The notes under the pieces were generated by a model. It saw nothing but the letters and a program-made list of their open reading frames with translations, did no database searches and was not told the origin of the DNA. A stretch of DNA of 64,000 nucleotides from positions 62,001-126,000 of the forward strand of contig NZ_CP133216.1 in NCBI RefSeq assembly GCF_030930995.1, in the 5' to 3' direction. The stretch is from Thiothrix subterranea. GTDB taxonomy: Bacteria > Pseudomonadota > Gammaproteobacteria > Thiotrichales > Thiotrichaceae. A program made the position numbers and the translations under genes. Numbering within the stretch: the first letter of the stretch is position 1; the number at the start of each line of letters is the position of its first letter. Shown here piece by piece: positions 28,606 through 52,218 of the stretch.

Positions 28606-28619
28606 TTTCACATGTGAAA
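28606..28619. promoter_or_regulatory. parS-like palindrome TTTCACATGTGAAA, upstream of replicon 1 parA
   Basis: Perfect 14-bp palindrome just upstream of parA. It resembles chromosomal parS (TGTTTCACGTGAAACA) with an extra AT at the centre. The same core is found in a 22-bp perfect palindrome at 34385-34406. Confidence 0.6.
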
Positions 28620-28726
28620 ATGTACCGTCATCGGTGCAATATGGGCATTGATACAAGAGTTTTGCCTGATACACAAGGTTTTTCTGCTAAAAATTACGGG
28701 TGTTCAAAAGGATGGTTTGATTGAGC

Positions 28727-29095: not shown

Positions 29096-29152
29096 GCGGG
29101 TATTTGTTCTATACTCCTGTTTTTTCTTACCATTGTTAATGAAGTCCTAAGT

Positions 29153-30427: not shown

Positions 30428-30458
30428 CTCCCTGTTTTGTTTAGGCGGGTATTTGGAA

Positions 30459-30573
30459 AAGACACCGTTTGTGTGCTGACGGGCTGCTAACAAGTTCATG
30501 GGGGTAGACATGACAGCAATGTTTGAGGTGTGGGTTTGTTTTGCCGGGGAAAAGACACCGTTTGTGTGCTGTA
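30459..30573 (+). repeat. Two further replicon 1 iterons downstream of rep
   Basis: Exact copies of AAGACACCGTTTGTGTGCTG at 30459-30478 and 30552-30571, 93 bp apart, in the same orientation as the main array. They may act as incompatibility or copy-control (handcuffing) sites. The 30428-30648 gap shows nothing else clear. Confidence 0.85.
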
Positions 30574-37169: not shown

Positions 37170-38889
37170 TTACAAGCGTGTGATGTCACGCGGAATTTTT
37201 TTGAATACCAGCCCGTGACGTTGCAGGAATTCTGGTGACAACAGGCAGGCATCGGCATACACCACCACCAGCGCGGGACGTTTGCCGCCAAATTGGAGGC
37301 TTCCCAGAAAATCCATGTCTAGCAGCGTGGCGCGGTCGGGTTCGTAGTGGAATAGCCATGCAGCATCCGGCGTTTGCCCCAGTAGGTAGGGTGAAACGGG
37401 GTTATCCGTGGTGGTGCGTGATTCTTGGGGGATGTTTTCGGTATACGCTACGTAGTCGCGGATCACTTGTACCCCGACGGCTTCATTGAGGTTGTCATCG
37501 GGCAGGAAGAGCGGTTCGCCTACGGTGTAGTAGCTGAAAGCACCGCCTAGCCCTGCGGTTGCCTTGTTGCCTTCCCCGTAACCTGCCATGACACGGCGCA
37601 CACGCTCGGCGGTGATGGTTTCGGCGTAGTCCATCATTTCACAAAGGATAAAGCGGCGGTTGCCACCGTCTTGGGCGTTGAGTTTCAACACTGCATGGGC
37701 AGTTGTGCCACTCCCCGCGAAGGAGTCCAGCACCAGCGCATCTTTCCCCGTCGCAATCTGCAATATCCGTTCAATTAAAGTGCTTGGCTTCGGGGTAACA
37801 AAGTCATCTATTCCATTGCCTTCCGCCATGATTGCACGAATTTCTTTTTTTGCTGCATCGGTATGCCCACAAAACTCATGCGTCCACCATGTTTGAGGAA
37901 CTACACCACCTGCATTTTTTAACGAGTCACGATAACGTTTGAATGATGGCGTTTTACCTATTCCCTCTTTTCCCCAATAAATAAGATTATCCTGAATATT
38001 TTGAGCATGTCTTTCCTGTGAATAACGCCAAACTGCGTTGCGTTTAGGCCAGATTTCCTCACCTGTATTTGGTTGCATAATCGGGTAATAGAGGTTTGGA
38101 CGCTCATCGGCAGATTTGTTGCAAGTGTAATCACTTGTTCTAAAAATACCATTTGTATCCTCAAGTCGATACTGTCGATCTTTGTCTTCAGTTCTTGGAA
38201 GTAGCAAGCGTTCCCAATTAGCTGTCTTTCTGAAAACAAAAATATGGTCGTGCATTGGTGCAATACTTTTGTGGTCGTTGGCAACAGCATATTTTTTCTG
38301 CCAAAGAATATTTGCAACGAAATTAGTTGCGCCGAAAATCTCATCCATGATTAGGCGCAAATTAGCGGCTTCGTTGTCGTCGATGGAGATGAAAATCACG
38401 CCGTCTTTAGCAAGCAGGCGGTGAAGGAGTTTTAGGCGCGGGTACATCATACACAGCCACTTGTCATGGCGGGTGAGGTCTTCGCCTTCTTTGCCGACCA
38501 CTTGCCCCAGCCATTTCTTGATGCGCGGATCGTTCACTGCATCGTTGTAGACCCAACCTTCGTTGCCCGTGTTGTACGGCGGGTCAATGTAGATGCAGTT
38601 CACCCGTCCCTCAAATTCGGGCAGCAGGCTTTTTAACGCTTCGAGGTTGTCACCGTGGATGATGCGGTTATCATGGCTGTTGGCTGTTGGCTGTTGGCTG
38701 TTGGCTGTTGGCTGTTGGCTGTTGGCTGTTGGCTGTTGGCTGTTGGCTGTTGGCTGTTGGCTGTTGGCTGTTGGCTGTTGGCTGTTGGCTGTTGGCTATG
38801 TAAGTGTATTCGTGCCGCAGTACCCGCAGCGGTACATCGTGGTGATGGTTGACGACTTTATCTTTGCCTGTCCAAGTCAGGGTGGGCAT
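37170..38889 (-). CDS. mod: Type III DNA methyltransferase Mod, phase-variable (7-bp repeats, out of frame here)
   Basis: The true start is ATG at 38889 (MPTLTWTGKDKVVNHHHDVP), the standard type III Mod N-terminus. After EYTYIA the gene enters 17 copies of a 7-bp repeat read as repeats of NSQQPTA. With 17 copies the frame then hits TGA at 38673-38671. With 16 or 19 copies it would join directly to HDNRIIHGDNLEALKSLLPE and the rest of the enzyme: DPPYNTGNEGWVYND, then FAGSGTTAHAVLKL, the beta-class order of an N6-adenine methyltransferase. The ON form with 16 repeats would be 570 aa. It lies 9 nt from res. Phase variation of Mod would switch restriction and any genes controlled by methylation. 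Confidence 0.9.
38675..38797. repeat. Heptanucleotide tandem repeat (GGCTGTT)17 within mod
   Basis: 17 perfect copies of GGCTGTT (38675-38793) plus a partial GGCT on the plus strand; AACAGCC on the coding strand. Because 7 is not a multiple of 3, each gain or loss shifts the mod frame. No frame of the repeat contains a stop, so all three frames read the same heptapeptide. Expected ON at 16 or 19 copies, OFF at 17 or 18. Confidence 0.95.
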
Positions 38890-38961: not shown

Positions 38962-38981
38962 GAGTTTTACATGTAAAACTC
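38962..38981. promoter_or_regulatory. Palindrome AGTTTTACATGTAAAACT, site 1
   Basis: 20-bp perfect palindrome including flanking G/C. It supplies the last codons and stop of the 38967 gene (EFYM-stop). First of eight such sites between 38.9 and 49.5 kb. Confidence 0.75.
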
Positions 38982-40127
38982 AGTCTCATCATTTCCAGTG
39001 GTGTGCAATAATTCATGAATGTTTTTGGTATAGTAATCAGCCGGAAATCCAAGCAATTCGTTGAGCAGAATATGCTCCAATATGCTTTCGGGGTTATTCG
39101 GGTGTCGCGGGTAATTCTTCATTGCCATCGGCTCCTCAAGAGCGTAGCCAACCCGCTTGATGAAAATGTTGATGCTATGGTTGAGGTCATTAAGCCGGTT
39201 TTGCTGGTATTGAGCTTTTGCATATTTTGCATGGCTGTTGATAATTCCTGCCGTTTGGCTGATGGTGTATTTCAACAATAAGGACTCCACCAGTTTCCTC
39301 AAACGCTTTTGTTGGTATTTTTCCAGCCTGCCATCATAAATCTGGTTACAGGCAAAAGATGTCGTGCTTGTGACCAATACCTGTACCGCATACTCTTCCA
39401 GCTTTTCTCTGTCCGGGCTTTCTGCTAGCAATTGTAGGTCTACCCATAACAATCGCTGAAGCTTTTCCATCTCCATACGATGGCTGCCATCACGCGAAAC
39501 ATTTGGTATGAACAATAAAGCGTTCTCGCCAGTAGTCAACAGTGTTTTTGGCAAGCCATGCGCCATTTTCTGGATCATTCCCCGCATGTTTTCGCTCAGG
39601 AGATTGGGTGAGGGAATGATTATTCGTGTATCTGCCATCTCCCTGATGACTTGTAAAGTGTACTGTTTGTCGGGTGTCAGGTGAGGAGTATCCGTATATT
39701 GGGGATTCAATATATCGCCATACTTGGATTTCGATTGCATCAAGACGAACAGGATAAGGCATTGCTCTATGGATAAGGCTTCATAACGGACAGTCTCAAT
39801 CTCAAGCATCTGCTGTGCCTGCTGCTTGATGCAGTGTTCACATTGGCAATCTCCACTCAAGTGATGATTGCATGAAGGGCAAACGACAGGAGGTGTGTAT
39901 TTTTGGTTTTTCCGTACCCTTTCCTGATAAGTGGAACTACCGCAGAATGGGCAGTCACCCTGCTTTTGGGGCGGAATCGCTTTGATGAGAAGCCTCGGAT
40001 CTTTAATCTGAATGCTATATTTATCAACAAGATCAACATTTTTCACACCATTCATGTATTCAGTGTAAAGGCTCTCGATTGCCTCTTCGGAAAGGTGTGA
40101 AGTCAGTTGGGTATAGGGTTCAGTCAT
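38967..40127 (-). CDS. Hypothetical zinc-ribbon protein
   Basis: 386 aa from ATG at 40127; a TTG 15 nt upstream is also possible. I do not recognise the family. Near residues 60-100 there are three CxxC pairs (CPFCGS; CPSCNH; CQCEHC), indicating one or two structural zinc ribbons. The N-terminal segment (LYTEYMNGVKNVDLVDKYSI) looks like a helix-turn-helix, and the remainder is helical. Zinc ribbon plus possible HTH suggests nucleic-acid binding. Its last codons are part of the palindrome at 38962-38981 and its start lies 65 nt from another copy (40192), so it is tied to that operator network. Confidence 0.6.
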   Translation of the reverse strand: MTEPYTQLTSHLSEEAIESLYTEYMNGVKNVDLVDKYSIQIKDPRLLIKAIPPQKQGDCPFCGSSTYQERVRKNQKYTPPVVCPSCNHHLSGDCQCEHCIKQQAQQMLEIETVRYEALSIEQCLILFVLMQSKSKYGDILNPQYTDTPHLTPDKQYTLQVIREMADTRIIIPSPNLLSENMRGMIQKMAHGLPKTLLTTGENALLFIPNVSRDGSHRMEMEKLQRLLWVDLQLLAESPDREKLEEYAVQVLVTSTTSFACNQIYDGRLEKYQQKRLRKLVESLLLKYTISQTAGIINSHAKYAKAQYQQNRLNDLNHSINIFIKRVGYALEEPMAMKNYPRHPNNPESILEHILLNELLGFPADYYTKNIHELLHTTGNDETEFYM

Positions 40128-40191
40128 TGGCTGCTTGTGCAAGTCTGATAATAGCTGTCAATTTTACCATCTGTTTCATGATTGGATACAA

Positions 40192-40209
40192 AGTTTTACA
40201 TGTAAAACT
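40192..40209. promoter_or_regulatory. Palindrome AGTTTTACATGTAAAACT, site 2
   Basis: Perfect 18-bp palindrome between the divergent genes at 40127 (minus) and 40463 (plus). It is followed at 40249-40262 by GTTGATAACAACTG, the same pairing of palindrome and 14-mer seen at 34385/34427. Confidence 0.75.
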
Positions 40210-40270
40210 CCCCACCCCTTGCATTCTCCCCTGCCCTCACTTATTCTCGTTGATAACAACTGAACGGGAC

Positions 40271-40411
40271 ACCTATCCCACTTCTAGGCGGACAATCCGC
40301 CGCTTTCTTGAGCGGTTTTTTTATGTCCACAATCCGGCTTTCCGGGTGTGCGTGGCATACAAGACCGCCAATGGCGGAAATAAGCGCGTCGCTTCCTAGA
40401 AGGCGATAGGT
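40271..40411 (+). ncRNA. Structured leader/possible small RNA with long-range stem and internal terminator
   Basis: The ends pair over 15 bp: ACCTATC-cca-CTTCTAGG (40271-40288) with CCTAGAAG-gc-GATAGGT (40395-40411). Nested inside are GGCGGA-CAA-TCCGCC (40287-40301), an intrinsic terminator CCGCT-TTCTTG-AGCGG with seven Ts (40300-40322) and CCGCCA-A-TGGCGG (40365-40377). The second hairpin overlaps the first terminator base pairs, so the two folds compete. It lies 52 nt upstream of the 40463 gene, so it may be an attenuator or an independent RNA. No known riboswitch family recognised. Confidence 0.5.
40300..40322 (+). terminator. Intrinsic terminator/attenuator
   Basis: 5-bp GC-rich stem CCGCT/AGCGG with a 6-nt loop followed by TTTTTTT. 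No gene ends just upstream on the plus strand, which favours attenuation of the operon that starts at 40463. Confidence 0.6.
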
Positions 40412-40462
40412 TCACCCGGTACTCTTGTTACCTAAACCTAAAACTTCTATGGAGAGCTGCGT

Positions 40463-40837
40463 ATGTCAGAAACGCTGCCTGTTTATGCCCTGCCGTCAGG
40501 CACGGGGCAGTTGCCGCATTCCGCCTTGTTGGAATGGCCTGGTCTCACGGCTGAACAAATTGCCGTGTATGTGCAGATTGCCCGTGAACTGGGCTTTTGC
40601 CTCAATACCCTCCCCCCTACCCTTACCCCGCGTCAAACGGCTGTTGTGCTGGATGTGTCTGAAGGCACGTTGGAGCAATGGCGTTGTGTGTCGGCGGAGT
40701 TGCGTCCCAATTGCCCGGTGTTGCCGTTCCAGAAAACGGGCAGGTCGGTGCGTTATCCGGTCTGGGAAGTGGCGAAGTTTATCCGCCTGCATACCTTTGT
40801 GCGTTCCGGCCAACGGCTGGAGGGGGTGTGTGCATGA
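40463..40837 (+). CDS. Small helix-turn-helix DNA-binding protein
   Basis: 124 aa. The C-terminal half has an excisionase/MerR-like HTH (LTPRQTAVVLDVSEGTLEQW, about 54-73) followed by a wing-like segment (GRSVRYPVWEVAKFIRL). The N-terminus is a short helical region. It overlaps the next gene by 4 nt (ATGA), so it is co-translated with the O-like replication protein. Probably a regulator or accessory replication factor of the second replicon; the exact role is unknown. Confidence 0.7.
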   Translation: MSETLPVYALPSGTGQLPHSALLEWPGLTAEQIAVYVQIARELGFCLNTLPPTLTPRQTAVVLDVSEGTLEQWRCVSAELRPNCPVLPFQKTGRSVRYPVWEVAKFIRLHTFVRSGQRLEGVCA

Positions 40838-41889
40838 ATTCATTAGTCACCATTCTGGATGCCGCACTTGCTGCTGATCTGGGCAAACGCCAATGGGCAA
40901 TGTTTGTCGCTGTACTGCGCCAGACACTGGGCTACCGCAAGGTATCTGATGACCTGTCGTCCGGGCGGTTGTCACAGTTGACGGGAATACAGCGCAATCA
41001 TATCTGGCAGGCCAAACAGGAGTTGGTGGATATGGGCTTGCTGGTCAGTGTGCCGGGGAAGTTTGGGGAGGTGCTGGGGTTTGCAGTTTTACATGAAAAA
41101 CTTTCAGGTGTATCTGCTACACATTCCGGCTTACCCGTTCGCCCCGTGCCATCTGCTACAGATTCCGGCTTACCGGATAGGGTAGTGCAGGAAGTTTTAC
41201 ATGAAAAACTCACCCCTGCGGTTACTACCGCTATTCCGCCTGATTTGGGCGTGCCAGCGTCCCAATTTAGGCCGGAAACCGTCCCAAAACAGGACACATC
41301 ACTAAGTAACCATACACAAAGCAACCACAACAACAGTAAACCACCCTTGCCTGCCGTGTCTGGCATTCTGTTGGGTGAGGCTGGTATAGGGTTATCTGCT
41401 ACAGATTCCGGGTTGTGCCGCCCGTCTGTTTTTTCTTGCCGTTCATCTGCTACAGATTCCGGGTGTGCCAGATTGCCTGCTTTGGCGGGGGAACTGGAGT
41501 GGCCTGCGGGTCTGGATGCGGGAATGCGTCAGGACATGGCGGGGTTGTTGTGTGGCCTTGCGGTGCAGACGGCTCAATCGGTGCTGGATGTGCTGGCGAT
41601 GGGGCTGGAGGCCGGGAAGGTACGCAAGCCCTTGGCTTACCTGCGGGTATTGGTGCGTTCAGCCCACAACGGGGAACTGGTGGTTGCAGAAGCACAGGCA
41701 TGGCGTGAAAAACGCTCGCGTGAACGTGCCATACAGGTTCCAACATCGGTGTTTGAACGTGCCGGGGAATTGGCATGGATACAGCAGCTTGCCGATTTGC
41801 AGGGGCTTCCTGTGGATGTGGTGGCTTCCCAGCTAGGTGTGAAGGTGCGGCATCCCACGGGATCACACTGGCAGTCGCAGGGAGGATAG
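40834..41889 (+). CDS. Phage-O-like replication protein with origin boxes inside its gene
   Basis: 351 aa. The N-terminal winged helix (RQWAMFVAVLRQTLGYRKVS, then LSQLTGIQRNHIWQAKQELV; about 20-70) resembles the origin-binding domain of phage replication protein O. The middle (about 84-215) is low complexity and consists of peptide repeats VLHEKL (2 copies) and SATDSGL (3 to 4 copies). These are simply translations of DNA boxes: two GTTTTACATG-type palindromes and four TGCTACAGATTCCGG iterons. The C-terminal domain (about 220-351) is helical and presumably contacts other replication proteins. Placing origin boxes inside the O gene is exactly the lambda arrangement. Confidence 0.75.
   Translation: MNSLVTILDAALAADLGKRQWAMFVAVLRQTLGYRKVSDDLSSGRLSQLTGIQRNHIWQAKQELVDMGLLVSVPGKFGEVLGFAVLHEKLSGVSATHSGLPVRPVPSATDSGLPDRVVQEVLHEKLTPAVTTAIPPDLGVPASQFRPETVPKQDTSLSNHTQSNHNNSKPPLPAVSGILLGEAGIGLSATDSGLCRPSVFSCRSSATDSGCARLPALAGELEWPAGLDAGMRQDMAGLLCGLAVQTAQSVLDVLAMGLEAGKVRKPLAYLRVLVRSAHNGELVVAEAQAWREKRSRERAIQVPTSVFERAGELAWIQQLADLQGLPVDVVASQLGVKVRHPTGSHWQSQGG
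41085..41102. promoter_or_regulatory. Palindrome AGTTTTACATGAAAAACT, site 3 (intragenic)
   Basis: One mismatch from the 18-bp consensus, within the O-like gene, encoding VLHEKL. Confidence 0.65.
41115..41462 (+). repeat. Four replicon 2 iteron-like boxes inside the O-like gene
   Basis: TGCTACAGATTCCGG occurs at 41154-41168, 41397-41411 and 41448-41462, and with one mismatch at 41115-41129. It is the exact complement of the core of the iterons at 48905-49005. Between the second and third boxes, about 41266-41345 is relatively A-rich (ACCATACACAAAGCAACCAC...). The arrangement resembles an embedded origin. Confidence 0.85.
41193..41210. promoter_or_regulatory. Palindrome AGTTTTACATGAAAAACT, site 4 (intragenic)
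   Basis: Second one-mismatch copy within the O-like gene, 108 bp from the first, again encoding VLHEKL. Confidence 0.65.
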
Positions 41890-41893
41890 ACGC

Positions 41894-42184
41894 ATGACTG
41901 AGACAAGTGCAATGCCCTCCCCTGCCCTCGATCAGCCTCCCATCCCGGTACGTGCCGTGCTGCGTTTTGTGCTGGGGCTTTGGGATGGTTTGGTTTGGCT
42001 GCTGTTGGTGGCTTTGCCCGGTGTGTGGCAGAGCCTGAACCTTGCCGGGTTTGCCCTGCACTTTCCCTACGTGCTGATTGGTCTGGTGATCCTGGGTGGT
42101 GTGTATTACGCCATCCGTGCTTGGGCTGACGGGCATCTGTTGTGGTTCAGTGCAGTGCTGTTCCTGTTGGGTACATGGATGTAA
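41894..42184 (+). CDS. Small membrane protein, unknown function
   Basis: 96 aa with about three hydrophobic helices (VLGLWDGLVWLLLVALPGVW; LHFPYVLIGLVILGGVYYAI; HLLWFSAVLFLLGTWM) and a short polar N-terminus. It starts 4 nt after the O-like gene stop and ends 13 nt before the next gene, so it belongs to the same operon. Family not recognised. Confidence 0.7.
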   Translation: MTETSAMPSPALDQPPIPVRAVLRFVLGLWDGLVWLLLVALPGVWQSLNLAGFALHFPYVLIGLVILGGVYYAIRAWADGHLLWFSAVLFLLGTWM

Positions 42185-42197
42185 CAAGGAGTTTGTG

Positions 42198-43790
42198 ATG
42201 ATTACATTGGAAAAACTGGATACCTTACGCGGTAAGCCGGAAGAACTGAAAGACATGAAATCTGTCCGCCAATTGGTGGATGACCTGACCAAAGCCAACT
42301 GGCTGTTATGGCTGGCTGGGGTTGCGGCCTTTCTCGCTTCTGCCATGTTTGTGGTGAAGTATTTTGTCGGCGGCGACCTGACCCCATCCGTCTGGACGGG
42401 GGAGCAATGGGCCAATGCGTGGCTGGGTTTGGGCATCACCCTGGTGGTGACGTTTGGGCAAGGGCTGCTGTATGCCAGTGGCTACAAAGGGCCTGCTGCG
42501 CTGGTGGCTGTCTGCATTGTGGTGTTCTTCGGATTGTTCTCCGAGGTATCGCAATCCATGGAACGCGAAGATGCCACCGTGCGCCACCGTTCCGAGAACT
42601 CACCCGTGTTCCAGACGGCACTGGGCAGTATCGGCAAACTGACCGATAAAGCGGCAGCGCCCTCCCCTGCCCAACAAGCATTAGCAGCCGCCCAAGGGGA
42701 AGTGCATCGCTGGGAAGCCGAGCAGCAAAAGAAAGCCCAATGCCATACCTGTAGTGAATATAGTACCCGCACCATCGGCAGCAAACTGGCAGAAGCCCAA
42801 GGGAGGGTAGCCGCTGCGCGTGAACAGATAGCGGCTTACCAGACCAGTAACGCCTCTGCCCTGTCCACCGCCATTGCCCAAGCCAAGGCGTTGGAATATG
42901 ACGAGGACAAACATTACGGCATGATCCGCTTGCTGAAACATATGTTCAGCGTGGAAGGCATCGTGGCATCTTTCCTGTTCTCAGTGGTGGTGATCGGTAC
43001 GTTTGAGTACATCTTCCATTTCATTGGCACGTATGTCGGCAACCATCGCAAAGCACTGCAATTGCTGGGGCTGAATGCCGATGGTTCCCCGTTTGAACCT
43101 GCCCCCTCTTTACCTGCCCTACCCTCATCTGCCATGCCCATGCCATCACCTACCCTACCTGTTGCCACAGGTACGGGTGGTACAGGGCAACCGGCAGTGT
43201 CTGGTACGGGTGCGGGTACGGCAAGTGGTGCAGGTGTGCGTCCCCTACCCGGTATGATCCCTGCTGACCATTTCGCACGGGACTGGCTGCGCATGGACTA
43301 TTCCACCACTAACCCTACCTGCCCTATGCCCGGTTTTGCCCCGCCTGTTCCCCCTGTCCCACCCGGTGTTGTCGGTAGCCTGTCCAGCCTTACGGGTAAG
43401 GTGAAGAACCGGGATCAGGGTGGTCAGCGTACAGGTACGCAGCACCCCGGTACGGCAGGTGCAAAACAGGTAACGGGTAAGTACCTTACGGGTAAAGCCG
43501 GTGAGGGCAATGAGGTGCAGGTGGCCGAGTCTGTCTACCTGACCTTGTGCAAACTGGTCAGGGGAGGGCAGTTGCGTCCCAGCCGTCCGGGCTTGAAAAA
43601 GGCGCTTCAGAAAATGCAGGTTGGCAGCAATCAGGTGGAACGGCAGGCAATGGCCGACTTGATCCTGCGGCACATGGAACAGGATGGCGTGGTGTACCGC
43701 AATCCGGCGTACACTGGCCCCAGTTGTGGGCTGGGTGAATTCCTGCCTGTATTGGAAGTCAAACAGGCGGCGCTGGCTTTGGCTGGGTAG
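42198..43790 (+). CDS. Large membrane protein with coiled coil and Pro/Gly/Thr-rich linker
   Basis: 530 aa from ATG at 42198 (AAGGAG at 42186-42191). There are three hydrophobic segments near the N-terminus (WLLWLAGVAAFLASAMFVVK; LGLGITLVVTFGQGLLYASG; GPAALVAVCIVVFFGLFSEV). A helical, probably coiled-coil region with one CHTC pair follows (about 155-250), then another hydrophobic helix (GIVASFLFSVVVIGTFEYIF). A long Pro/Thr/Gly linker (about 295-450) and a C-terminal folded domain that looks like a winged helix (VYLTLCKLVRGGQLRPSRPG) complete it. A membrane protein with a possible DNA-binding tail could tether the plasmid or sense envelope contact; this is inference and no family was recognised. 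Confidence 0.7.
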   Translation: MITLEKLDTLRGKPEELKDMKSVRQLVDDLTKANWLLWLAGVAAFLASAMFVVKYFVGGDLTPSVWTGEQWANAWLGLGITLVVTFGQGLLYASGYKGPAALVAVCIVVFFGLFSEVSQSMEREDATVRHRSENSPVFQTALGSIGKLTDKAAAPSPAQQALAAAQGEVHRWEAEQQKKAQCHTCSEYSTRTIGSKLAEAQGRVAAAREQIAAYQTSNASALSTAIAQAKALEYDEDKHYGMIRLLKHMFSVEGIVASFLFSVVVIGTFEYIFHFIGTYVGNHRKALQLLGLNADGSPFEPAPSLPALPSSAMPMPSPTLPVATGTGGTGQPAVSGTGAGTASGAGVRPLPGMIPADHFARDWLRMDYSTTNPTCPMPGFAPPVPPVPPGVVGSLSSLTGKVKNRDQGGQRTGTQHPGTAGAKQVTGKYLTGKAGEGNEVQVAESVYLTLCKLVRGGQLRPSRPGLKKALQKMQVGSNQVERQAMADLILRHMEQDGVVYRNPAYTGPSCGLGEFLPVLEVKQAALALAG

Positions 43791-43822
43791 TCGCTTCAGG
43801 GGAAATAGGGACGGGGGAGGGG

Positions 43823-43840
43823 AGTTTTACATGTAAAACT
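43823..43840. promoter_or_regulatory. Palindrome AGTTTTACATGTAAAACT, site 5
   Basis: Perfect 18-bp copy between convergent gene ends (43790 plus, 43844 minus). There is no promoter here, which argues for a centromere or spreading role rather than a simple operator. Confidence 0.75.
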
Positions 43841-43843
43841 TCT

Positions 43844-44698
43844 CTATTGCCAAGGCAGGGATTCATAAAAGCCTACAACTTGTTCGTAGGCTTCCTCAAA
43901 AGGCGGTAAGGGTTGTGAAACCTCATTACGCAGCAGGGTATACTCCTTGCCGGAGGCTTCCATAATGTCTGATCTGCGCAAAATGTCCCGCTGAAGCAGT
44001 TCAGGCTCAAGGCGGCCTGTGGCCTTTTTGTGAAACGTGTCCAGCACCTGCTGTTTTTCCCGATGGGTCAGGGGAGGGCAGGTGTCCAACAGATACCAGA
44101 TGTCATACACGTCCTGACGGCGGTTACGCTTACGTACCACCTGCTGAATGATGGAGCGCAGCTTTTCCGCCAGCAGGTCGGTCAGGCCGTAAGCCTGAAT
44201 GGTTTCTTCTCCATCCAACGATAAGGCTTCCAGCTCGTAGCTGGCTTCATTGAAGCTGTAATCAATCTTGACCGTGGTTGGTGCTGCACCCCGTTCCAGC
44301 CGTTTTACGGCATTGCTATCCTGGGTGTTGGCATAACCCAACTGTAACTTGAAAGAGGGGAAAGTGCCTCCTGTGCGGGGTTGCAGTTTGAGGGACTGGA
44401 GACGGCAAACAACCGGGTAGGGGAGTTCATCAGCGGCAACCACCAGTGCTTCCCGCAGGTGTGCTTCAAACTCCGTCCGGTCAATCTCAGGCAAGGTCTT
44501 GTGGGTCGAGAAGTCAATGTCTTCCGTAAAGCGGGAACTGCTGTAACGGATACCCAGCAACATGCCACCCTTCATAATCATGCGTAACCGCAGGTAATTG
44601 TCACCCGCAATCGCGTGCAGGATCAGGTGGACAGCTTGCCTGAAGGTGGTACGGTCAGGGGTGGCAGCCCTGACCCAATCATCAATTTTGGTTTCCAT
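43844..44698 (-). CDS. abiEii: AbiEii-type nucleotidyltransferase toxin
   Basis: 284 aa. DUF1814/AbiEii nucleotidyltransferase: GGMLLGIRYSSSRFTEDIDF (the Gly and the DxD-like EDIDF metal site, about 45-65), KIDYSFNEASYE and TDLLAEKLRSIIQQVVRKRN (conserved Lys). AbiEii proteins block growth by nucleotidylating tRNA or similar targets and abort phage infection. It overlaps the antitoxin gene by 17 nt, the classic type IV pair. Confidence 0.92.
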   Translation of the reverse strand: METKIDDWVRAATPDRTTFRQAVHLILHAIAGDNYLRLRMIMKGGMLLGIRYSSSRFTEDIDFSTHKTLPEIDRTEFEAHLREALVVAADELPYPVVCRLQSLKLQPRTGGTFPSFKLQLGYANTQDSNAVKRLERGAAPTTVKIDYSFNEASYELEALSLDGEETIQAYGLTDLLAEKLRSIIQQVVRKRNRRQDVYDIWYLLDTCPPLTHREKQQVLDTFHKKATGRLEPELLQRDILRRSDIMEASGKEYTLLRNEVSQPLPPFEEAYEQVVGFYESLPWQ

Positions 44699-45605
44699 CG
44701 GACAAGTTTACGGATATGCACCAGGTTTCTGAATAAGAATCTTTGTAAGGTTCAGTCGCCAGCAGTTTGCGGGAGCCACCGCGCTGTACCAAGGCTTTCC
44801 AGCCATCAATGGTGGGGTGCTGGTGTCCTAGCCGCTCTTGCAGGATATAACCGACCCTTACCTTGTCGATGGCCTTACCTTCCTTGTCTATGGTCTTGAG
44901 GATGACGGGGAGGTAATGCCCCGCATATTCGGTGAACACTTCCAGCACATGGCTGAAACCACCACAATAGTCGGGTTCCTGAAGCATATCCAGGAAGGTG
45001 CGCCCTATGGGCGCAACCCGTATGCCACCACTACCGTGTTGTTCCGGGTAAGGGCGGTAGTCCTTGCGGGTATGTTCCTGTATGGTTTTCGCCTGAATCT
45101 CCCCGCCGGGTTTATGGTGCTTGCATGGAATGTCCGCCAGGGCAGGGAGGGAATGGAAATCCTGTTTGGCCTTTTCTTCTGCCAGCCGCCTGAATTCACT
45201 GGCAGTGCAGGTGGTCACATGGACAGTGTGGGGGATGCGGTCAGTCAGGTGATGCCATTCCATTGCACTCAGGTGTGACAGGTAGCAAAACGGGTTCAGT
45301 GTGCAAATGACCTGTTGCGCTGTCGGTGCTGTCAGGCCAGCAACAGCAAACACTGGCAGGTTAGCGAACTGGGTCAGTATGCCTTTGTTGACCAGACTAT
45401 CCAGATTGCGCTCAATGACGGTTTGCTGGGGCAGGTCGGATGTTAGCTTGCCAATAGGTAAACCGGCATAGGTTTTGGTGTGGTAGAGTTTTACCATGTA
45501 CCCTACCAGTTCATAGCGGCTTATCACGGGTTTGGGATGTTCCGTGAGTATCAGCCGTTGCAGGGCTGTAGAAAAGGGGATACTGGCTTTCACATCACTT
45601 CTCAT
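44682..45605 (-). CDS. abiEi: AbiEi-type antitoxin/transcriptional regulator
   Basis: 307 aa. An N-terminal winged helix (SRYELVGYMVKLYHTKTYAG to VIERNLDSLVNKGILTQFAN) is followed by a long AbiEi C-terminal domain (CYLSHLSAMEWHHLTDRIPH; GRTFLDMLQEPDYCGGFSHV). It represses its own operon by binding inverted repeats at the promoter and neutralises AbiEii. The start codon at 45605 lies inside a 41-bp perfect palindrome (45603-45643), the obvious operator. Confidence 0.9.
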   Translation of the reverse strand: MRSDVKASIPFSTALQRLILTEHPKPVISRYELVGYMVKLYHTKTYAGLPIGKLTSDLPQQTVIERNLDSLVNKGILTQFANLPVFAVAGLTAPTAQQVICTLNPFCYLSHLSAMEWHHLTDRIPHTVHVTTCTASEFRRLAEEKAKQDFHSLPALADIPCKHHKPGGEIQAKTIQEHTRKDYRPYPEQHGSGGIRVAPIGRTFLDMLQEPDYCGGFSHVLEVFTEYAGHYLPVILKTIDKEGKAIDKVRVGYILQERLGHQHPTIDGWKALVQRGGSRKLLATEPYKDSYSETWCISVNLSDGNQN

Positions 45606-45643
45606 AATAAGATATATGTCCTTAGGACATATATCTTATTATG
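45603..45643. promoter_or_regulatory. 41-bp perfect palindrome overlapping the abiEi start
   Basis: 20-bp arms, starting CATAATAAGATATATGTCCT on the plus strand, around a single central T. It is perfectly symmetric and includes the abiEi start codon. It is AT-rich and may also contain the promoter -10. It should be the AbiEi autoregulatory operator; in mRNA it would also fold over the start codon. Confidence 0.85.
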
Positions 45644-45759
45644 ATTCATAAGTCAAGTATGGATATTCTTGATATTGGTTTCAGGTACATGAAATAGAAG
45701 GAGTTTAGTCGATATTATGCATACTGTCTGTAGATGTGTCAGGGTGATGGCTGGATAGA

Positions 45760-45777
45760 AGTTTTACATGTAAAACT
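45760..45777. promoter_or_regulatory. Palindrome AGTTTTACATGTAAAACT, site 6
   Basis: Perfect 18-bp copy upstream of the abiE operon. Confidence 0.75.
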
Positions 45778-45880
45778 GTGCTGTTGGCAGGACAAGGCGG
45801 GAACAGGGGAGTTGTCCGTATCCATAAATTTATCCGTATTTATTCATTGGCTGTAACTGTCTGGACAAATGGTAGGGACG

Positions 45881-45896
45881 GTTTTACATGTAAAAC
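45881..45896. promoter_or_regulatory. Palindrome GTTTTACATGTAAAAC, site 7
   Basis: Perfect over 16 bp, 121 bp from site 6. Confidence 0.7.
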
Positions 45897-46282
45897 TGCG
45901 ATTGCTTTTATAATGGCTTTCCCGGCCTGTCAGGCAAGGTATCCAGGTCGTTTCCGGCAAGTATTCTGACCAGGACAAGATGGTGTTGTCCGTGTTACCA
46001 ATGGGGTGGCATCGTTTTGTGGCTGGCAGGGCGGGGATTTGCTGGGGCAGTCAGTAGACGGACATTGGGGTTACGCCTTGGGGGCAAGGGTGCGAAGGCT
46101 GCGGTGAACAGGGATGGAAAAACTGTTGTGGGGCAGGGAACTTGGTCTGTAAAAAATGTCGTTCAGTTTTAGTTAAGTTTTCTGTTCACTTTGGATTTTG
46201 CTTGTGCCAGAATGCGCCCAGCCCTTTAGAAAAGACCCCTCTTGTAGACACGGAAGTCTCACGATAACAATAAGGAAAGCAT

Positions 46283-46322
46283 GGCGACTGGTTCCCCCCT
46301 GACCAGTCGCCTTTATTTTTTT
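46283..46322 (+). terminator. Strong intrinsic terminator, possibly ending a small RNA
   Basis: 10-bp perfect stem GGCGACTGGT/ACCAGTCGCC (46283-46292, 46302-46311), 9-nt loop, then TTTATTTTTTTT. It faces plus and has no plus-strand gene within 600 nt upstream, so it probably ends an untranslated transcript starting near 46200. An AAGGA site and ATG occur just before the stem, but the frame would have to read through the terminator. Confidence 0.65.
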
Positions 46323-46389
46323 GGGTGTCCTGCCTGTCTTATTTCAGCTTGCCTTTACCTTGCCTTGACCCGCTGCCTTGCCGGGGATT

Positions 46390-46689
46390 TCATTCATCCA
46401 CAGACAATGCGACAAACCTGCCATCGGGATTCCGGCAACCTTGGAATGGGTCTTGGGTGTGGGTATTGAACTGTGCCAGCAGGGTAGGTGGGACGCTAAA
46501 GCCTAGCCTGACATTATCCGGTTCACCGTTGGTGGGGTACAACTCCAGCAACAGCCCGCCGAGGTAAGTGGAATAGTGGACTGGGCCGCTACCGTGTTGT
46601 TCCCGTGTGAACGTCAACCCAAGTTGGGTGTAAAAGGTTCTGGTGGCCTCAATGTCGCGGCAACGCAGTACCAGCAGGTTCAGGTGCAT
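46390..46689 (-). CDS. VOC-family (glyoxalase/bleomycin-resistance-like) protein
   Basis: 99 aa, shorter than the usual 120-130 of the family but with a good N-terminal betaalphabeta module (MHLNLLVLRCRDIEATRTFY, TQLGLTFTREQHGSGPVHYS) and the second strand set (GLLLELYP, Glu as metal ligand; NPDGRFVALSVDE). Could be a metal-dependent isomerase, dioxygenase or antibiotic-sequestering protein; the substrate cannot be inferred. It stands alone. Confidence 0.85.
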   Translation of the reverse strand: MHLNLLVLRCRDIEATRTFYTQLGLTFTREQHGSGPVHYSTYLGGLLLELYPTNGEPDNVRLGFSVPPTLLAQFNTHTQDPFQGCRNPDGRFVALSVDE

Positions 46690-46767
46690 TCTGGTTCCTC
46701 TTGTCTGGGTTGGTCTCGCCTGACATGTTACCTGACAGGGAACTGGATGCAGATGTTGCCGATACTA

Positions 46768-47173
46768 GGGTGTGTTTAAACAAACGGCATCAAAGTTCCA
46801 CAGGATTTTAAGCAAGATGCTAATTTATAAAGAATATAGATCGTTTCCAACTTCCCATCTTTAGGCACGTCGCCAACCTGTTTTTTGAGAAAGTGATTAA
46901 GGCGAAGGCAGAAAATGAAAACAGAATAGAAGTGTGGGTAAGGCGCGATTGAAACGGTGGTTTCTTGGAAACGGTGGTTTGCGAGAAGATCAGCCAGACT
47001 AGCTACACACACGTAAAATCAATGTCTTGGGGTTCTTTGAAACAGTTCTTGAAACCGTATTCTCAATAGGCCGACCTATCCCCGTTTGTGAGAATATCAA
47101 TAGCACACGCATTAGGGAGCACGGGGGTGCGAGAAATCTATGGAACTTTGATGCCTTTTGTTTAAGTTCACCC
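46768..47173. mobile_element. 406-bp element with 32-bp terminal inverted repeats (MITE/IS remnant)
   Basis: The left end GGGTGTGTTTAAACAAACGG... (46768-46799) and the complement of the right end GGGTGAACTTAAACAAAAGG... (47142-47173) match at 28 of 32 positions. The element is flanked by TA on both sides, suggesting a TA target. The interior has no intact transposase; a broken minus-strand frame (46776-47012) may be a remnant. It directly abuts an ArdC-like fragment. Confidence 0.65.
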
Positions 47174-47305
47174 TACATTGCCCATTATGTAAAAATGCTG
47201 GAAGACGACCACAAAGCCATTTTCCGGGCATCAACGCTGGCACAGCGGGCTACTGATTACCTCATCGGGCTGGCCTCACCTGTCCTGACAAGGGAAAGCG
47301 CCTGA
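47174..47305 (+). pseudogene. ArdC-like antirestriction protein, C-terminal remnant
   Basis: The segment YIAHYVKMLEDDHKAIFRAS followed by TLAQRATDYLIGLASP resembles the C-terminal end of ArdC-type antirestriction proteins (ssDNA-binding plus zincin). Only about 43 codons remain, starting exactly at the right end of the 406-bp element. No continuation was found on the element's left side, so the 5' part is deleted rather than merely interrupted. Confidence 0.5.
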
Positions 47306-47417
47306 AGGTAATACCAAACCTGCCACAATACCGTAGAGGGTTGTGGCAGGCCAAAGGAGCAGCAGACAGCCCGACCCAAGTGCTGGGACACACGGCAAGC
47401 AGAAACAGGACAAAACC

Positions 47418-47834
47418 ATGACGGATGAAACAGTAAAAGAACCTATCAATGCCCACAAAGTCGCTGAAACTGAACGTATGAAGGTGATGCCTGCCTTGTT
47501 CGGGATGCGCTTCGCCCAAGTAGAACAAACGGTCTACCAATTGATGGACGGACTATGCAGCGCCTACCAAGGAGGACAATGGGAACTCTACACCCTACCA
47601 AACAGCAGCTTTTACATGGCTCCACGCAGGGCGGAAAAACTGCTTATCCAATGGGATGGAAACGGGTTTACAGGGGAAATGAGCGCGGATGCTGCCGGTA
47701 TTGTCGCTTGCCTGTTTACCTACTCAGCCCTTTCTTTCCAAGGGTGCGAAACCTGTGGCGACATGTACCACCTGCTGCTGGATTATGCCGAACAACACCC
47801 GGAAGCCAGCCTGATCTTCAGTGCCATCGACTAA
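47418..47834 (+). CDS. ardB: ArdB/KlcA-family antirestriction protein
   Basis: 138 aa from ATG at 47418 (ACAGGAC upstream). Family features: MKVMPALFGMRFAQVEQTVY, YQGGQWELYTLPNSSFYMAP, an ACLFTYSALSF segment and a C-terminal LLDYAEQHPEASLIFSAID. KlcA/ArdB proteins relieve type I restriction of incoming plasmid DNA, probably without binding DNA directly. Normal length. It lies next to the replicon 2 rep gene, as klcA often does near plasmid control regions. Confidence 0.9.
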   Translation: MTDETVKEPINAHKVAETERMKVMPALFGMRFAQVEQTVYQLMDGLCSAYQGGQWELYTLPNSSFYMAPRRAEKLLIQWDGNGFTGEMSADAAGIVACLFTYSALSFQGCETCGDMYHLLLDYAEQHPEASLIFSAID

Positions 47835-47999
47835 AAACGTACTCAAGTGGAGTAAAGCTGGACGAACGTCACAAAATACCAGCAGGACGGCAAAATATCA
47901 GGATTCAGGAAAATGCGGACGATGTGCTATAGTCATAAGTGCGGTACAGGCTGAGGAGCCGATGACCGCCCAGGGTGATGCGGAAGCGTCCCACATGCA

Positions 48000-48019
48000 A
48001 GGGTGTCTTCGGACACCCT
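48000..48019. terminator. UUCG hairpin between ardB and rep
   Basis: 8-bp stem AGGGTGTC/GACACCCT closed by TTCG, followed by ATATTATT on the plus side. It lies between convergent ardB (end 47834) and rep (end 48052) and may terminate either. An iteron-like box CCGGAATTTGTAGCA lies at 48036-48050, touching the rep stop. Confidence 0.6.
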
Positions 48020-48051
48020 ATATTATTCAGGCAACCCGGAATTTGTAGCAA

Positions 48052-48789
48052 TTAGGCTGCTTCACTCTCGTCCAAATCTTCCACCACTGGCAACAAGGGC
48101 AATTCTTCTTGTTGCGATGCCTTTGTGAAACGGAAGTCAATCGCCACCACCGAACGTTGTTCCCTGATTGCTACCCAAGATACGCGCAAGTCTGTATGCG
48201 AGTTAATCTGCTCAACGGCTGGAACCAGAATACGTGCCTTGAAGTTGGCAAAACGCATATAAGAATCTGACAACTCCAGCATTTCCTTGAAATCTACCAG
48301 CGTCACACGAATAGAAGACCGCAGTTTCACGTACTGCTTAAGATACTCATAAACCCGGATAGCATAAGTACTGGTCAGATGTGATATGTAGCGCAGGTCA
48401 TAACTGGTAAAACGCTCATTCAACAGCGTTAAAAATGGCAGTATCTCCGGGGAAAAATTCACCGTAACCCGACCATTACCCCTGTCATACGTCGCCTTAC
48501 TAACCCAACGAACCTTCTCAACCCTGCCATCTTCAAACCGGGTCTTTACTTCCCGGTTCCACAGCCTTTCTGTTGCATCCTCTAAGGCTTCATAAGCATG
48601 GCGAGTCTCAAGCGTATAGGCAGCCGCAAAAGCAGCCGCAGTCACCGCCTTGATACGAGAAAAAGGCTTGCTCGAATCAATTTGGGCAATACAAAACAAG
48701 ATCAGACGTTGTTCATTCAAACTCAACGTATAACCTGCTTTCACCAATTCATTGGATTTGGTAACTTTCCAGTTAGTAATGTCATCCAC
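48052..48789 (-). CDS. Rep_3-family replication initiator (replicon 2)
   Basis: 245 aa, typical RepB/RepA (PF01051) size. First winged helix: KVTKSNELVKAGYTLSLNEQ, then RLILFCIAQIDSSKPFS. The ERLWNREVKTRFEDGRVEKV segment is followed by the second winged helix SHLTSTYAIRVYEYLKQYVK. It binds the five iterons upstream on its own side and, by inverted half-sites at 48811-48834, should repress its own gene. Distinct from the replicon 1 initiator in length and iteron sequence. Confidence 0.95.
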   Translation of the reverse strand: MDDITNWKVTKSNELVKAGYTLSLNEQRLILFCIAQIDSSKPFSRIKAVTAAAFAAAYTLETRHAYEALEDATERLWNREVKTRFEDGRVEKVRWVSKATYDRGNGRVTVNFSPEILPFLTLLNERFTSYDLRYISHLTSTYAIRVYEYLKQYVKLRSSIRVTLVDFKEMLELSDSYMRFANFKARILVPAVEQINSHTDLRVSWVAIREQRSVVAIDFRFTKASQQEELPLLPVVEDLDESEAA

Positions 48790-48810
48790 GTGCTGTATCC
48801 TTCCCTATCT

Positions 48811-48834
48811 GCTACAACTACAAAAATTTGTAGC
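48811..48834. promoter_or_regulatory. Inverted half-iterons in front of replicon 2 rep
   Basis: GCTACAA (48811-48817) and TTGTAGC (48828-48834), facing copies of the iteron core, 22 nt upstream of the rep start. This is the usual autorepression operator of Rep_3 dimers. Confidence 0.8.
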
Positions 48835-48872
48835 AATAGCAGGAGGATAGCACAAAAATCAGTGAGTAAGTC

Positions 48873-49125
48873 TGTGGATATGCTGTGGATAAAATGTGGA
48901 CGTGCGGAATCTGTAGCACGAACAGCCGGAATCTGTAGCACTGAACCCGGAATCTGTAGCACGAACAGCCGGAATCTGTAGCACGAACAGCCGGAATCTG
49001 TAGCAGATAACCGCTATAACCCAATGATAAAAAAGAAGAAATTTAATGCTAAAACATTAAAATCTTAAAACAAGAGTAAATATTTAAAAACAAGTAATAG
49101 TAGGCACAAAAAAATCTGTGGATAA
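48873..49125. other. Origin region of replicon 2 with DnaA boxes
   Basis: TGTGGATAA (complement of TTATCCACA) occurs at 48884-48892 and 49117-49125, and TGTGGATAT at 48873-48881. They bracket the five iterons. An AT-rich block (about 49016-49115, with runs such as AAATTTAATGCTAAAACATT) between iterons and the distal DnaA box is the probable melting region. The following 49126-49614 holds a GC palindrome (49227-49250), one iteron box (49430-49444), palindrome site 8 and the parA leader. Confidence 0.85.
48905..49005 (+). repeat. Five iterons of replicon 2
   Basis: The core CGGAATCTGTAGCA starts at 48905, 48927, 48948, 48970 and 48992 (spacing 22, 21, 22, 22), usually followed by CGAACAGC. Single copies with 0-1 changes also occur at 48036, 49430, 51092 and 52204, and in a group of four at 41115-41462. 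Confidence 0.93.
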
Positions 49126-49226
49126 CCAAGCACTTCAAGGTAAAAAGACCCAACCCTTCGCACCTAAAGGTGCTTCGCCCTGTCCTACGGACAGCCTACA
49201 AGGAATTCCCTTCGGTCATACACTCT

Positions 49227-49268
49227 TTGTCTTGGGGCTTTGCCCCAAACCCCAAGGTATTTATACCA
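49227..49268. repeat. Palindromic element CTTGGGG...CCCCAAGGTATTTA, copy 1
   Basis: CTTGGGGCTTTGCCCCAAAC followed by CCCAAGGTATTTATACC. The complement TAAATACCTTGGGGT recurs at 53706-53720, followed by the perfect inverted repeat CTGGGGTGACACCCCAG (53721-53737). Probably a shared transcription-stop or REP-like element. Confidence 0.5.
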
Positions 49269-49429
49269 GGATGATGATGTATTTCTTCTCCTGACCGACG
49301 ATTTTGGGAAATTAAAGGGCGATATGAGCATTATTTTGCAGTAGTGATGGCAGAATGATTTTACATTGGCTGGATTTTAAGCCGGGAAAGTTATTCCAAT
49401 CAGGAATTGGGTGACTGATTCCGGTTTCG

Positions 49430-49444
49430 TGCTACAAATTCCGG
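49430..49444 (+). repeat. Solitary iteron box upstream of replicon 2 parA
   Basis: TGCTACAAATTCCGG, one change from the iteron core complement, 12 bp before palindrome site 8. This repeats the box-plus-palindrome pairing seen inside the O-like gene. Confidence 0.7.
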
Positions 49445-49455
49445 GTTGGAATTCG

Positions 49456-49473
49456 AGTTTTTCATGTAAAACT
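49456..49473. promoter_or_regulatory. Palindrome AGTTTTTCATGTAAAACT, site 8
   Basis: One mismatch from consensus, 142 nt upstream of parA. Confidence 0.65.
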
Positions 49474-49614: not shown

Positions 49615-50382
49615 ATGGGAAAAATCCTGACGGTGGCGATCCACAAAGGGGGGACAGGAAAAACCACCCTTGTATCACACCTTGCCCTGTATGCACGTAG
49701 CAAGAAGCTATCTGTCCTGATCATCGACATGGATGCCCAAGGTAATATCAGTGCTTTCTTCAATGTTGAGTCACCTACAGCCGGAGCATCAGCCCTGTTC
49801 CTGGAAGGGCAGGAAGCACCGATGCATAGCATTGACGGTGAAAACTTCAAACTAATACCCGCTGACAACGGATTATTGGGAATTGAACGTCTGCCTTTTG
49901 AGAGTGTGCAGCTATATCGGCAACGGTTGCGCAGCTTCGCTGCCACTTTTGATCTGGTGATCCTGGACACGCCTCCATCCATGGGATTCTCCATGCTGGC
50001 ACCGTTAATTGCGTCTGATTTTGCCGTAGCTCCTGTTATCCCTGATGCGTACAGCATCCGTGGGGTCAAGTCCCTGTACGCCAAAATCAAGGCGGTACGT
50101 AGCAAGTACAACCCATCCCTGAAATTTCTCGGACTGGTGCTAAACCGCTGGAACAGCCGGAATTCACAACAGGTGGAAATGGTGAAGAAATTCCAGGAAC
50201 TGCTGCCGGGACAGTTGATTGCTAATCCACTGGCAGACCGCTCAGCTATTGCCAATGCTGCCTACGATAGCAAGGCTGTATGGGATAAACCCAACGGTGG
50301 TGCTGCACGGGTAGCCGCAGTCGAGATGCTGGAAGTCATGGCTGAAATTATGGAAAAAATGGGCATGAGGAACAAAGGATGA
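49615..50382 (+). CDS. parA: ParA/IncC-like partition ATPase (replicon 2)
   Basis: 255 aa. Deviant Walker A HKGGTGKTTLVSHLALYARS at residues 7-26, DMDAQGNISAFFN, and LVILDTPPSMGFSMLAPLIA. Small ParA without HTH. ACGAGGAC lies just before the start. It overlaps parB by 4 nt. Together with parB and a TrfB-like gene it forms a control operon similar in content to korA-incC-korB of IncP plasmids, with korA moved to the end. Confidence 0.94.
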   Translation: MGKILTVAIHKGGTGKTTLVSHLALYARSKKLSVLIIDMDAQGNISAFFNVESPTAGASALFLEGQEAPMHSIDGENFKLIPADNGLLGIERLPFESVQLYRQRLRSFAATFDLVILDTPPSMGFSMLAPLIASDFAVAPVIPDAYSIRGVKSLYAKIKAVRSKYNPSLKFLGLVLNRWNSRNSQQVEMVKKFQELLPGQLIANPLADRSAIANAAYDSKAVWDKPNGGAARVAAVEMLEVMAEIMEKMGMRNKG

Positions 50383-51365
50383 AACAGGATGATTTCGGGT
50401 TAGGTTCCCTAGCCGCAGAACTGGAAGCAGACACTACCGTCATTGCCGAGTTGCTATTGCACCAGATTTCCCCTGACCCAGAACAACCCCGCAAGTCGAT
50501 TGACCCCGAAAAGTTGCAGCAACTGGCGGATTCCATCAAGGCACAAGGTGTCATTCAACCGATTGTGGTACGTAATGGGAATGCGTTTGACAGCTACATC
50601 ATTGTGGCCGGTGAACGTCGCTGGCGGGCTGCACAGATTGCTGGTCTGAATACCATTCCTGCTGTAGTACGCGAATTTGAACAAACTGCCCTAGCAGCAG
50701 CCCAGATCATTGAGAACATTGACCGGGAAGGCTTCACTCTGTTGGATGAAGTGCGGGCAGTCATGAAAATGTGTGAGCTTTGTGGATCAGCCAAGTCTGC
50801 CGGGGAGGCACTGGGAAAACCCAAAGCATGGATCTCGCAGCGGGTCAAAATTGGCACTGTTGGCGGCATTATCGAAACCTTCATTGAAGAGGGGGACAGC
50901 ACCGATGTGATGGGTACTTATCAGCTTGCCCGTTTCACGGAAAAGCACCCGGAAGAGGGTAAACAATTCATTGAAAACTGGATCCAGCACCCGGAATCAC
51001 GCGGCAGTTTGCGGGAGAAAGTAGCCGAGTTGTTTTTCCAGATGGACAGACCAAAGTCAGCCGTTGCTAACCAGGATGAAACCCCCGTATCTGCTACAAA
51101 TTCCGGGTCAATGGAGGCCGTTACGCCTGTTCAGACCGAACCAAAACCGGCTGTAGCCACTGTTGTGGCCCCAGTTGAACCCAAGGCAGTGCCTACAAGT
51201 GTGCAACAGGACGGAAGCAAACCCAAGGCTGCCCCAAAGGCAGAACACAAGCCGGAAAATGTAGTCAATTTCCGGGTGGGGGACGAAGAGGTTTTCCTAC
51301 AAACACCAACCCGCACGATTGTCCTCAACAAAGCGATGTTAAAGGTCATTCATGATCAACTGTAG
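50379..51365 (+). CDS. parB: ParB/KorB-like partition protein (replicon 2)
   Basis: 328 aa. ParB CTPase domain (LLHQISPDPEQPRKSIDPEK, AQGVIQPIVVRNG, GERRWRAAQIAGLNTIPAVV, ENIDREGFTLLDEV), HTH region (EALGKPKAWISQRVKIGTVG), and a Pro/Lys-rich linker. A short C-terminal segment (VNFRVGDEEVFLQTPTRTIV) resembles the KorB SH3-like end. An iteron box (51092-51106, TGCTACAAATTCCGG) lies inside the gene. It is the prime candidate to bind the eight GTTTTACATGTAAAAC palindromes. Confidence 0.92.
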   Translation: MKQDDFGLGSLAAELEADTTVIAELLLHQISPDPEQPRKSIDPEKLQQLADSIKAQGVIQPIVVRNGNAFDSYIIVAGERRWRAAQIAGLNTIPAVVREFEQTALAAAQIIENIDREGFTLLDEVRAVMKMCELCGSAKSAGEALGKPKAWISQRVKIGTVGGIIETFIEEGDSTDVMGTYQLARFTEKHPEEGKQFIENWIQHPESRGSLREKVAELFFQMDRPKSAVANQDETPVSATNSGSMEAVTPVQTEPKPAVATVVAPVEPKAVPTSVQQDGSKPKAAPKAEHKPENVVNFRVGDEEVFLQTPTRTIVLNKAMLKVIHDQL

Positions 51366-51768
51366 GTTGTCAGAGGAGGATTTCAGACGGACAGTTGCCA
51401 CCCTGAAACGTTTTAGGGAACGTCCCCAACAAGCAGCATGGCGGGTACTGGTTGCAGGGGAAACGCTGGAGACAGCCGCCGCTGTACTGGATATTTCCAA
51501 AGAGGCCGTCAGGAAATCCGTTGGTAGGGTTGCCACTGCATGGCAACACCTAAACCTCTCGGAACTGGATGCCGCCCGTGAAGCCGCTATTGGTCTGATG
51601 CGGGAAATCATGCCGGGACAAGGTATCCCAAAGGGTTGGGAACCTGTGGTTGTTTACCTGCCTCGCAGCATGGCAAAAAGTATCCGTGAACTGGAAATCC
51701 AACAACTTGCTGCGGTACAAAAGAATAATAACAGCAATCCTGTAAACACCCAGACAGCACACCATTAA
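51352..51768 (+). CDS. TrfB/KorA-like transcriptional repressor
   Basis: 138 aa. The HTH region GETLETAAAVLDISKEAVRK (about residues 36-55) and the segment WEPVVVYLPRSMAKSIRELE match the TrfB-related family (KorA of IncP: LTxxxF... plus a VTAVLP-like strand). It overlaps parB by 14 nt. KorA-type proteins bind short palindromes and repress replication, partition and transfer promoters. Candidate targets here are ACCTATATAGGT and the GTTTTACATGTAAAAC family. Confidence 0.75.
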   Translation: MINCRLSEEDFRRTVATLKRFRERPQQAAWRVLVAGETLETAAAVLDISKEAVRKSVGRVATAWQHLNLSELDAAREAAIGLMREIMPGQGIPKGWEPVVVYLPRSMAKSIRELEIQQLAAVQKNNNSNPVNTQTAHH

Positions 51769-52203: not shown

Positions 52204-52218
52204 TGCTACAGATTCCGG
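52204..52218 (+). repeat. Solitary iteron box between control operon and deoxyribosyltransferase gene
   Basis: TGCTACAGATTCCGG, exact, touching the 3' end of the minus-strand gene at 52219. Confidence 0.75.

Follow-up and report, generated by a model that had tools for sequence, protein, structure and literature searches.

Iterons of a Rep_3 initiator lie inside the phage O-like replication gene of a Thiothrix plasmid and may serve to regulate a second replication system

Introduction

Why should the gene of a phage O-like replication protein, carried on a plasmid of Thiothrix subterranea, contain within its reading frame several copies of the very repeat that makes up the origin of another, unrelated initiator of the same plasmid? 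A first-pass annotation of this DNA had suggested an accessory origin served by the Rep_3 initiator and/or the O-like protein itself or, failing that, a device for titrating Rep. The stretch analyzed here (the window, 64,000 nucleotides) comprises positions 62001–126000 of the 151,453-base contig NZ_CP133216.1 from a 4.4 Mb two-contig genome, and its closest counterpart among annotated records is the Thiothrix fructosivorans plasmid pTfr153 (NZ_CP072750), on which trb genes and a traG are found along with a parA-parB-korA row. The backbone is common to T. lacustris DSM 21227 (G011) and a Thiothrix MAG (G019), and partly to one Rhodoferax-binned contig. Comparisons were made among three Rep-bearing plasmids (those of the window, T. 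lacustris and the Thiothrix MAG) and the Rep-less pTfr153, so that the orthologous O-like genes number four only, all of them from close relatives.

Results

The O-like gene (40834–41889, + strand, ATG at 40834) encodes 351 aa arranged as a winged-helix N-terminus, a linker and a C-terminal domain. The O-type N-terminal domain seen by the first-pass annotation is borne out by a PF04492 (Phage_rep_O) match at 2.1e-11, above the gathering score, and by the PHROG "replication initiation O-like", while the TIGR01610 match (44.6) falls just under its cut-off of 45.5; the C-terminal domain shows a weak similarity to the STY4528 family, and the linker is, judging by a low-confidence structural model (pLDDT < 50 at residues 67–216), probably disordered. 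No lambda P-like helicase loader was recognized beside the gene, as neither of the two genes downstream (41894–42184 and another that ends at 43790) matches a Pfam family of replication type or is annotated as replication-type in pTfr153. No viral relative of the O-like gene was confirmed, the phage matches spanning little beyond the N-terminal domain.

Four copies of a 15-base box, TGCTACARATTCCGG, lie in the part of this gene encoding the linker, all on the + strand: one with a single mismatch (TGCTACACATTCCGG, 41115–41129) and three exact ones (41154–41168, 41397–41411 and 41448–41462), spaced 39, 243 and 51 bp apart, just as had been reported in the first-pass annotation. A search allowing up to three mismatches returned 17 matches in the window, where 1.3 would be expected and the maximum in 100 shuffles was six, and chance can thus be rejected as their source; across the whole 4.4 Mb genome, every match except one is on this plasmid. 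Single exact boxes also occur in chromosomal genes of several Thiothrix genomes (L043 2926–2940, in the gene of a 578-aa protein, and L044 3170–3184, in a topoisomerase-like gene), in another frame or on the other strand, and these were set aside as probably reflecting chance within coding sequence. Among 84,980 species genomes, paired boxes were found only in Thiothrix and in one Rhodoferax-binned contig, 94–96% identical. That contig (MTEI01000030, L164) holds 8 kb with this level of identity to the Rep_3 and parA-parB-korA part of the Thiothrix plasmids, which represents either horizontal transfer or a mis-binned contig; the O-like gene was not found in the Rhodoferax bin, which may be incomplete.

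The in-gene boxes match, as the first-pass annotation had noticed, the iterons of a small Rep_3 initiator of the RepE/pPS10-RepA type, encoded at 48052–48789 on the − strand (PF01051 8.7e-38, PF21205 1.6e-17), in which both the WH1 and WH2 domains are present (PDB matches 1hkq and 1rep). Its array (48904–49005, − strand) consists of five copies, four exact and one with one mismatch, at a spacing of 21–22 bp, and is flanked by DnaA boxes at 48884–48892 and 49117–49125; inverted half-iterons (TGCTACA...TGTAGCA) upstream of rep at 48810–48835, a layout repeated in the relatives, are likely to form an autorepression operator. With tandem iterons at about 21–22 bp, a DnaA box, an AT-rich stretch and a half-iteron operator at rep, this origin has the layout of a RepE/pPS10-type iteron replicon. 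Rep_3 proteins 42–46% identical to this one, from Sedimenticola, Thioflavicoccus and Methylomagnum, have variant boxes (TGCTACARATTYRCGG, TGCTACAGATTTATGG and TGCTACAAAAATACGG, respectively) at their own origins and, within the stretches read, nowhere else, and the viral contigs L100, L116 and L123 carry boxes upstream of genes that are Rep_3-like by their translations. As such variants sit at the origins of Rep_3 relatives outside Thiothrix and in viral contigs, sequence comparison indicates that the box is the iteron of this Rep_3 group, and the copies away from the origin in the Thiothrix plasmids look derived.

Such copies are not confined to the O-like gene, and the first-pass inventory, although correct for the in-gene set, had missed four of them: a box just past the rep stop codon (48036–48050, − strand), one upstream of parA (49430–49444, + strand), 11 bp from a palindrome at 49456–49473, one in frame in the parB/korB linker (51092–51106, + strand), where it is translated as SATNSG in the phase used by the boxes of the O-like gene, and an intergenic one where the parA-parB-korA operon ends (52204–52218, + strand). 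The plasmid thus has extra copies of the Rep_3 iteron outside the minimal origin, as expected of an ex-origin control locus of the incA/incC type, and the single ones mark the 3′ end of rep, the region upstream of parA, parB itself and the far end of the korA operon. The plasmid has yet another replicon at 26758–30568, shared with pTfr153, with its own parA/parB and a 454-aa Rep_3-family initiator, Rep1 (29063–30427); the iterons of Rep1, AAGACACCRTYTGTGTG, are found at 28901–29025, 30459 and 30552 and nowhere else, and Rep1 was accordingly dismissed as a reader of the O-like gene. GC skew did not point to a clear single origin.

Interleaved with the boxes are two operator-like palindromes, AGTTTTACATGAAAAACT, translated as VLHEKL (41085–41102 and 41193–41210, + strand); both are real, as the first-pass annotation had it, while it had overlooked six more, which are spread over 38963–49473 but do not fall within the O-like gene. 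In pTfr153 the second palindrome reads AGTTTCACATGTGAAACT, with both arms altered, the symmetry now perfect and the peptide changed from VLHEKL to VSHVKL; since the arms changed together while the peptide changed, this may be taken as a sign of constraint at the DNA level. The parA, KorB-domain parB and KorA genes stand in a row at 49615–51768 (PF13614, PF02195+PF08535 and PF16509), as in an IncP-like operon. In a comparison of 63 genomes from the family, more than one palindrome was present solely in the four that have the KorA homologue, one other genome having a single one-mismatch match; as the same four also hold the close O-like homologues, however, the distribution does not single out KorA as the binder. 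The region also contains, at 38674–38797, a tandem array of the 7-base unit TGGCTGT, perfect over 17.7 copies (100% matches), just upstream of a DNA methyltransferase-like gene (37170–38603, − strand), and this tract is possibly phase-variable.

The box-in-gene layout is present in all three Rep-bearing plasmids, at four or five boxes each: in both T. lacustris and the Thiothrix MAG, the orthologous O-like gene carries five exact boxes, and the three sites around the parA-parB-korA row are kept. Between these two, none of the 75 box nucleotides and none of the 36 palindrome nucleotides differ, whereas 28 of the remaining 296 linker nucleotides do (Fisher p 0.002 for the boxes), and the Ala, Thr and second Ser codons have a single spelling in 14/14 in-gene boxes of the Rep-bearing plasmids. 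The identity of the Rep_3 protein itself with its counterparts in T. lacustris and the MAG is 99%, as against only 83–85% for the O-like proteins.

A different picture is seen in pTfr153, where neither the plasmid nor the genome has a close homologue of this Rep_3 (best 35% identity). Its O-like gene retains one exact box and a degenerate one (TCA GCG ACA GAT TCC GGC, synonymously changed with the SATDSG peptide intact), the remaining boxes being missing; the parB box (peptide ATDSG) and the post-operon box have two mismatches each, and the box upstream of parA is intact despite the absent Rep. That last box and its palindrome (window 49430–49473; L038 15885–15928) form conservation islands between the window and pTfr153. 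Exact boxes make up 2/5 in the Rep-less pTfr153 versus 26/27 of the ex-origin boxes in the Rep-bearing plasmids (p 0.008, with copies that are not independent), and the three boxes around parA-korA in pTfr153, with 5/45 differences at a 27% background (p 0.009), are better kept than that background. The boxes therefore seem, on these comparisons, to follow Rep and not the O-like protein, as far as can be told from one Rep-less plasmid in which two boxes persist. As intact boxes are found there without Rep, the loss of Rep may be recent in pTfr153, or the box may be recognized by a further protein as well. The loss of a box by synonymous changes with SATDSG kept, which the first-pass annotation had named as the sign against its own proposal, does occur, then, in pTfr153; the sole relative showing it lacks the cognate Rep, however, so that it agrees with the DNA being constrained in a Rep-dependent way.

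Between the boxes and palindromes, which flank it, lies a segment (41236–41345, + strand) that is a candidate for the O-like protein's own origin, intragenic and of the lambda type: short, imperfect CCTGATTTGGG-type repeats in both orientations (41239–41293) are followed by a 40% GC stretch (41294–41345). Third positions are nearly frozen here, differing between the window and pTfr153 at 1/37 sites compared with 65/208 in the two terminal domains (p 8e-5), and, at codons for the same residue in all four plasmids, varying at 2/27 compared with 63/161 (p 0.0008); as the segment was picked after viewing the alignment, the weaker longest-run permutation p of 0.035 should be read alongside these values. 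The lambda origin likewise lies inside the O gene, with iterons beside an AT-rich tract (PMC7466680), and this core is, on its layout and conservation, probably a better candidate than the boxes for the O-like protein's own origin. No DnaA box was found in or near the in-gene segment, whereas the main Rep_3 origin has two.

Discussion

What, then, are the in-gene boxes for? In the reading that we favor, at about even chances of being correct as a whole, they are ex-origin Rep_3 sites flanking the O-like origin, at which Rep restrains the second replication system, with the palindromes under a KorA/KorB-type network. Rep_3 would bind in vivo to the boxes on either side of the probable O-like origin and would most likely hold the O-like system back, whether by handcuffing (pairing with the main iteron array), by titration of Rep and/or as a roadblock that hinders transcription of the O-like gene or firing of its origin. 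Titration of Rep, or copy control, is the part of the first-pass proposal that stays plausible. The interleaved operator-like palindromes would probably bring this stretch, too, into the plasmid's KorA/KorB-type network. That the control is negative is what we infer, and a rather unlikely variant is that of a composite intragenic origin, in which flanking Rep_3 licenses or blocks the O-like core, so that two unrelated initiators would act at one site and the plasmid would switch between replication modes.

Other explanations were weighed against the same data. That the boxes arose by recombination or slippage, which copied iteron-like DNA into tolerant linkers where it has no function in the gene, is unlikely: all in-gene boxes do fall in the indel-rich, probably disordered linker and in the SATDSG phase, box copy number varies and the parB box is in the same phase, yet the boxes are unchanged islands of the linker among the Rep-bearing plasmids, and each of these plasmids has its intergenic copies at the same control sites. 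Somewhat less likely still is the second origin of the first-pass annotation, at which Rep, alone or with the O-like protein, would open the DNA at the boxes. Four to five iterons flanking a conserved AT-rich stretch within an initiator gene would suit it, and initiator-mediated looping to distant origins is known, Miron et al. (1992, cited in PMC4980987) having reportedly shown that distant origins of R6K are activated through initiator DNA looping; the conserved core persists, however, in the Rep-less pTfr153, and regulatory sites are to be favored over a Rep-driven origin because the box spacing is off the 21–22 bp phase of the main array, no DnaA box is near and single boxes stand at control points.

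The O-like protein might, on the other hand, bind the boxes itself, one iteron being common to two unrelated initiators, as the first-pass annotation had also entertained. Lambda O does bind iterons inside its own gene (PMC7466680), and the boxes occupy the equivalent linker. This is nevertheless a very unlikely account, and it was rejected as the leading explanation since the boxes seem to go with Rep and not with the O-like protein: most are gone or degenerate in pTfr153, where the O-like DNA-binding domain is little changed, the family's other O-like genes lack boxes and have different short repeats in their linkers, the box is found at Rep_3 origins of plasmids without an annotated O-like gene (in the stretches read), and it is another conserved segment of the linker that probably serves as the O-like origin. 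Least probable of all is that the peptide (SATDSG, VLHEKL) is the conserved unit, for instance as a docking motif of the O-like protein and ParB, and that the identity of the DNA is incidental; the shared phase in both genes and the SATDSG kept in pTfr153 although its codons changed would agree with it, but the same 15-mer occurs at non-coding positions and on the other strand, one codon spelling is used in 14 boxes and the second palindrome of pTfr153 changes the peptide while retaining the symmetry of the DNA. Conservation of the peptide alone was rejected on the strength of the non-coding copies and the codon uniformity.

The regulatory reading combines known kinds of element, namely, ex-origin iterons and an origin within an initiator gene, in an arrangement that is real and conserved, and of which no description was found in the open-licence literature searched. 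Ex-origin iteron control sites include incA of P1 and incC of F. In Vibrio cholerae, ex-origin RctB sites of Chr2 similarly lie away from the origin, where they can titrate or handcuff the initiator (PMC6090056). The Thiothrix sites differ from all of these in being placed inside the coding region of an unrelated second initiator, around its probable origin. Distant origins served by one initiator are found in R6K, which, like the Thiothrix plasmid, combines one Rep-type initiator with a main iteron array and with sites far from it on the same molecule; there is no sign, however, of Rep-driven initiation at the distant Thiothrix site, and the gene hosting it is O-like. To our knowledge, repL of phage P1, which with oriL also offers an origin inside an initiator gene beside a Rep/iteron replicon, does not carry the iterons of the plasmid replicon. 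Synonymous changes in an AT-rich part of repL inhibit replication (PMC9948254). With lambda O, the Thiothrix gene shares the PF04492 N-terminal domain and, as a candidate, a repeat block beside an AT-rich stretch in the linker, and in Stx phages the number of O-gene repeats varies via in-frame insertions (PMC7466680); unlike lambda O, however, the Thiothrix gene is on a plasmid with conjugation genes, its in-gene iteron boxes belong to another initiator, Rep_3, and no P-like gene was identified beside it. The parA, KorB-domain parB and KorA row (PF08535, PF16509) and the scattered palindromic operator-like sites recall the KorA/KorB network of the IncP plasmid RK2, whereas the palindrome differs in sequence from the RK2 operators and has two copies inside the O-like gene.

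Large plasmids often have more than one replication system, and little is understood of how these avoid firing against one another. If the regulatory reading is true, the wiring between two of them would be readable in the sequence itself, the sites of one initiator being written in frame into the gene of the other, around its probable origin, and the fact that this layout is kept in related plasmids suggests that one replication system monitors the other.
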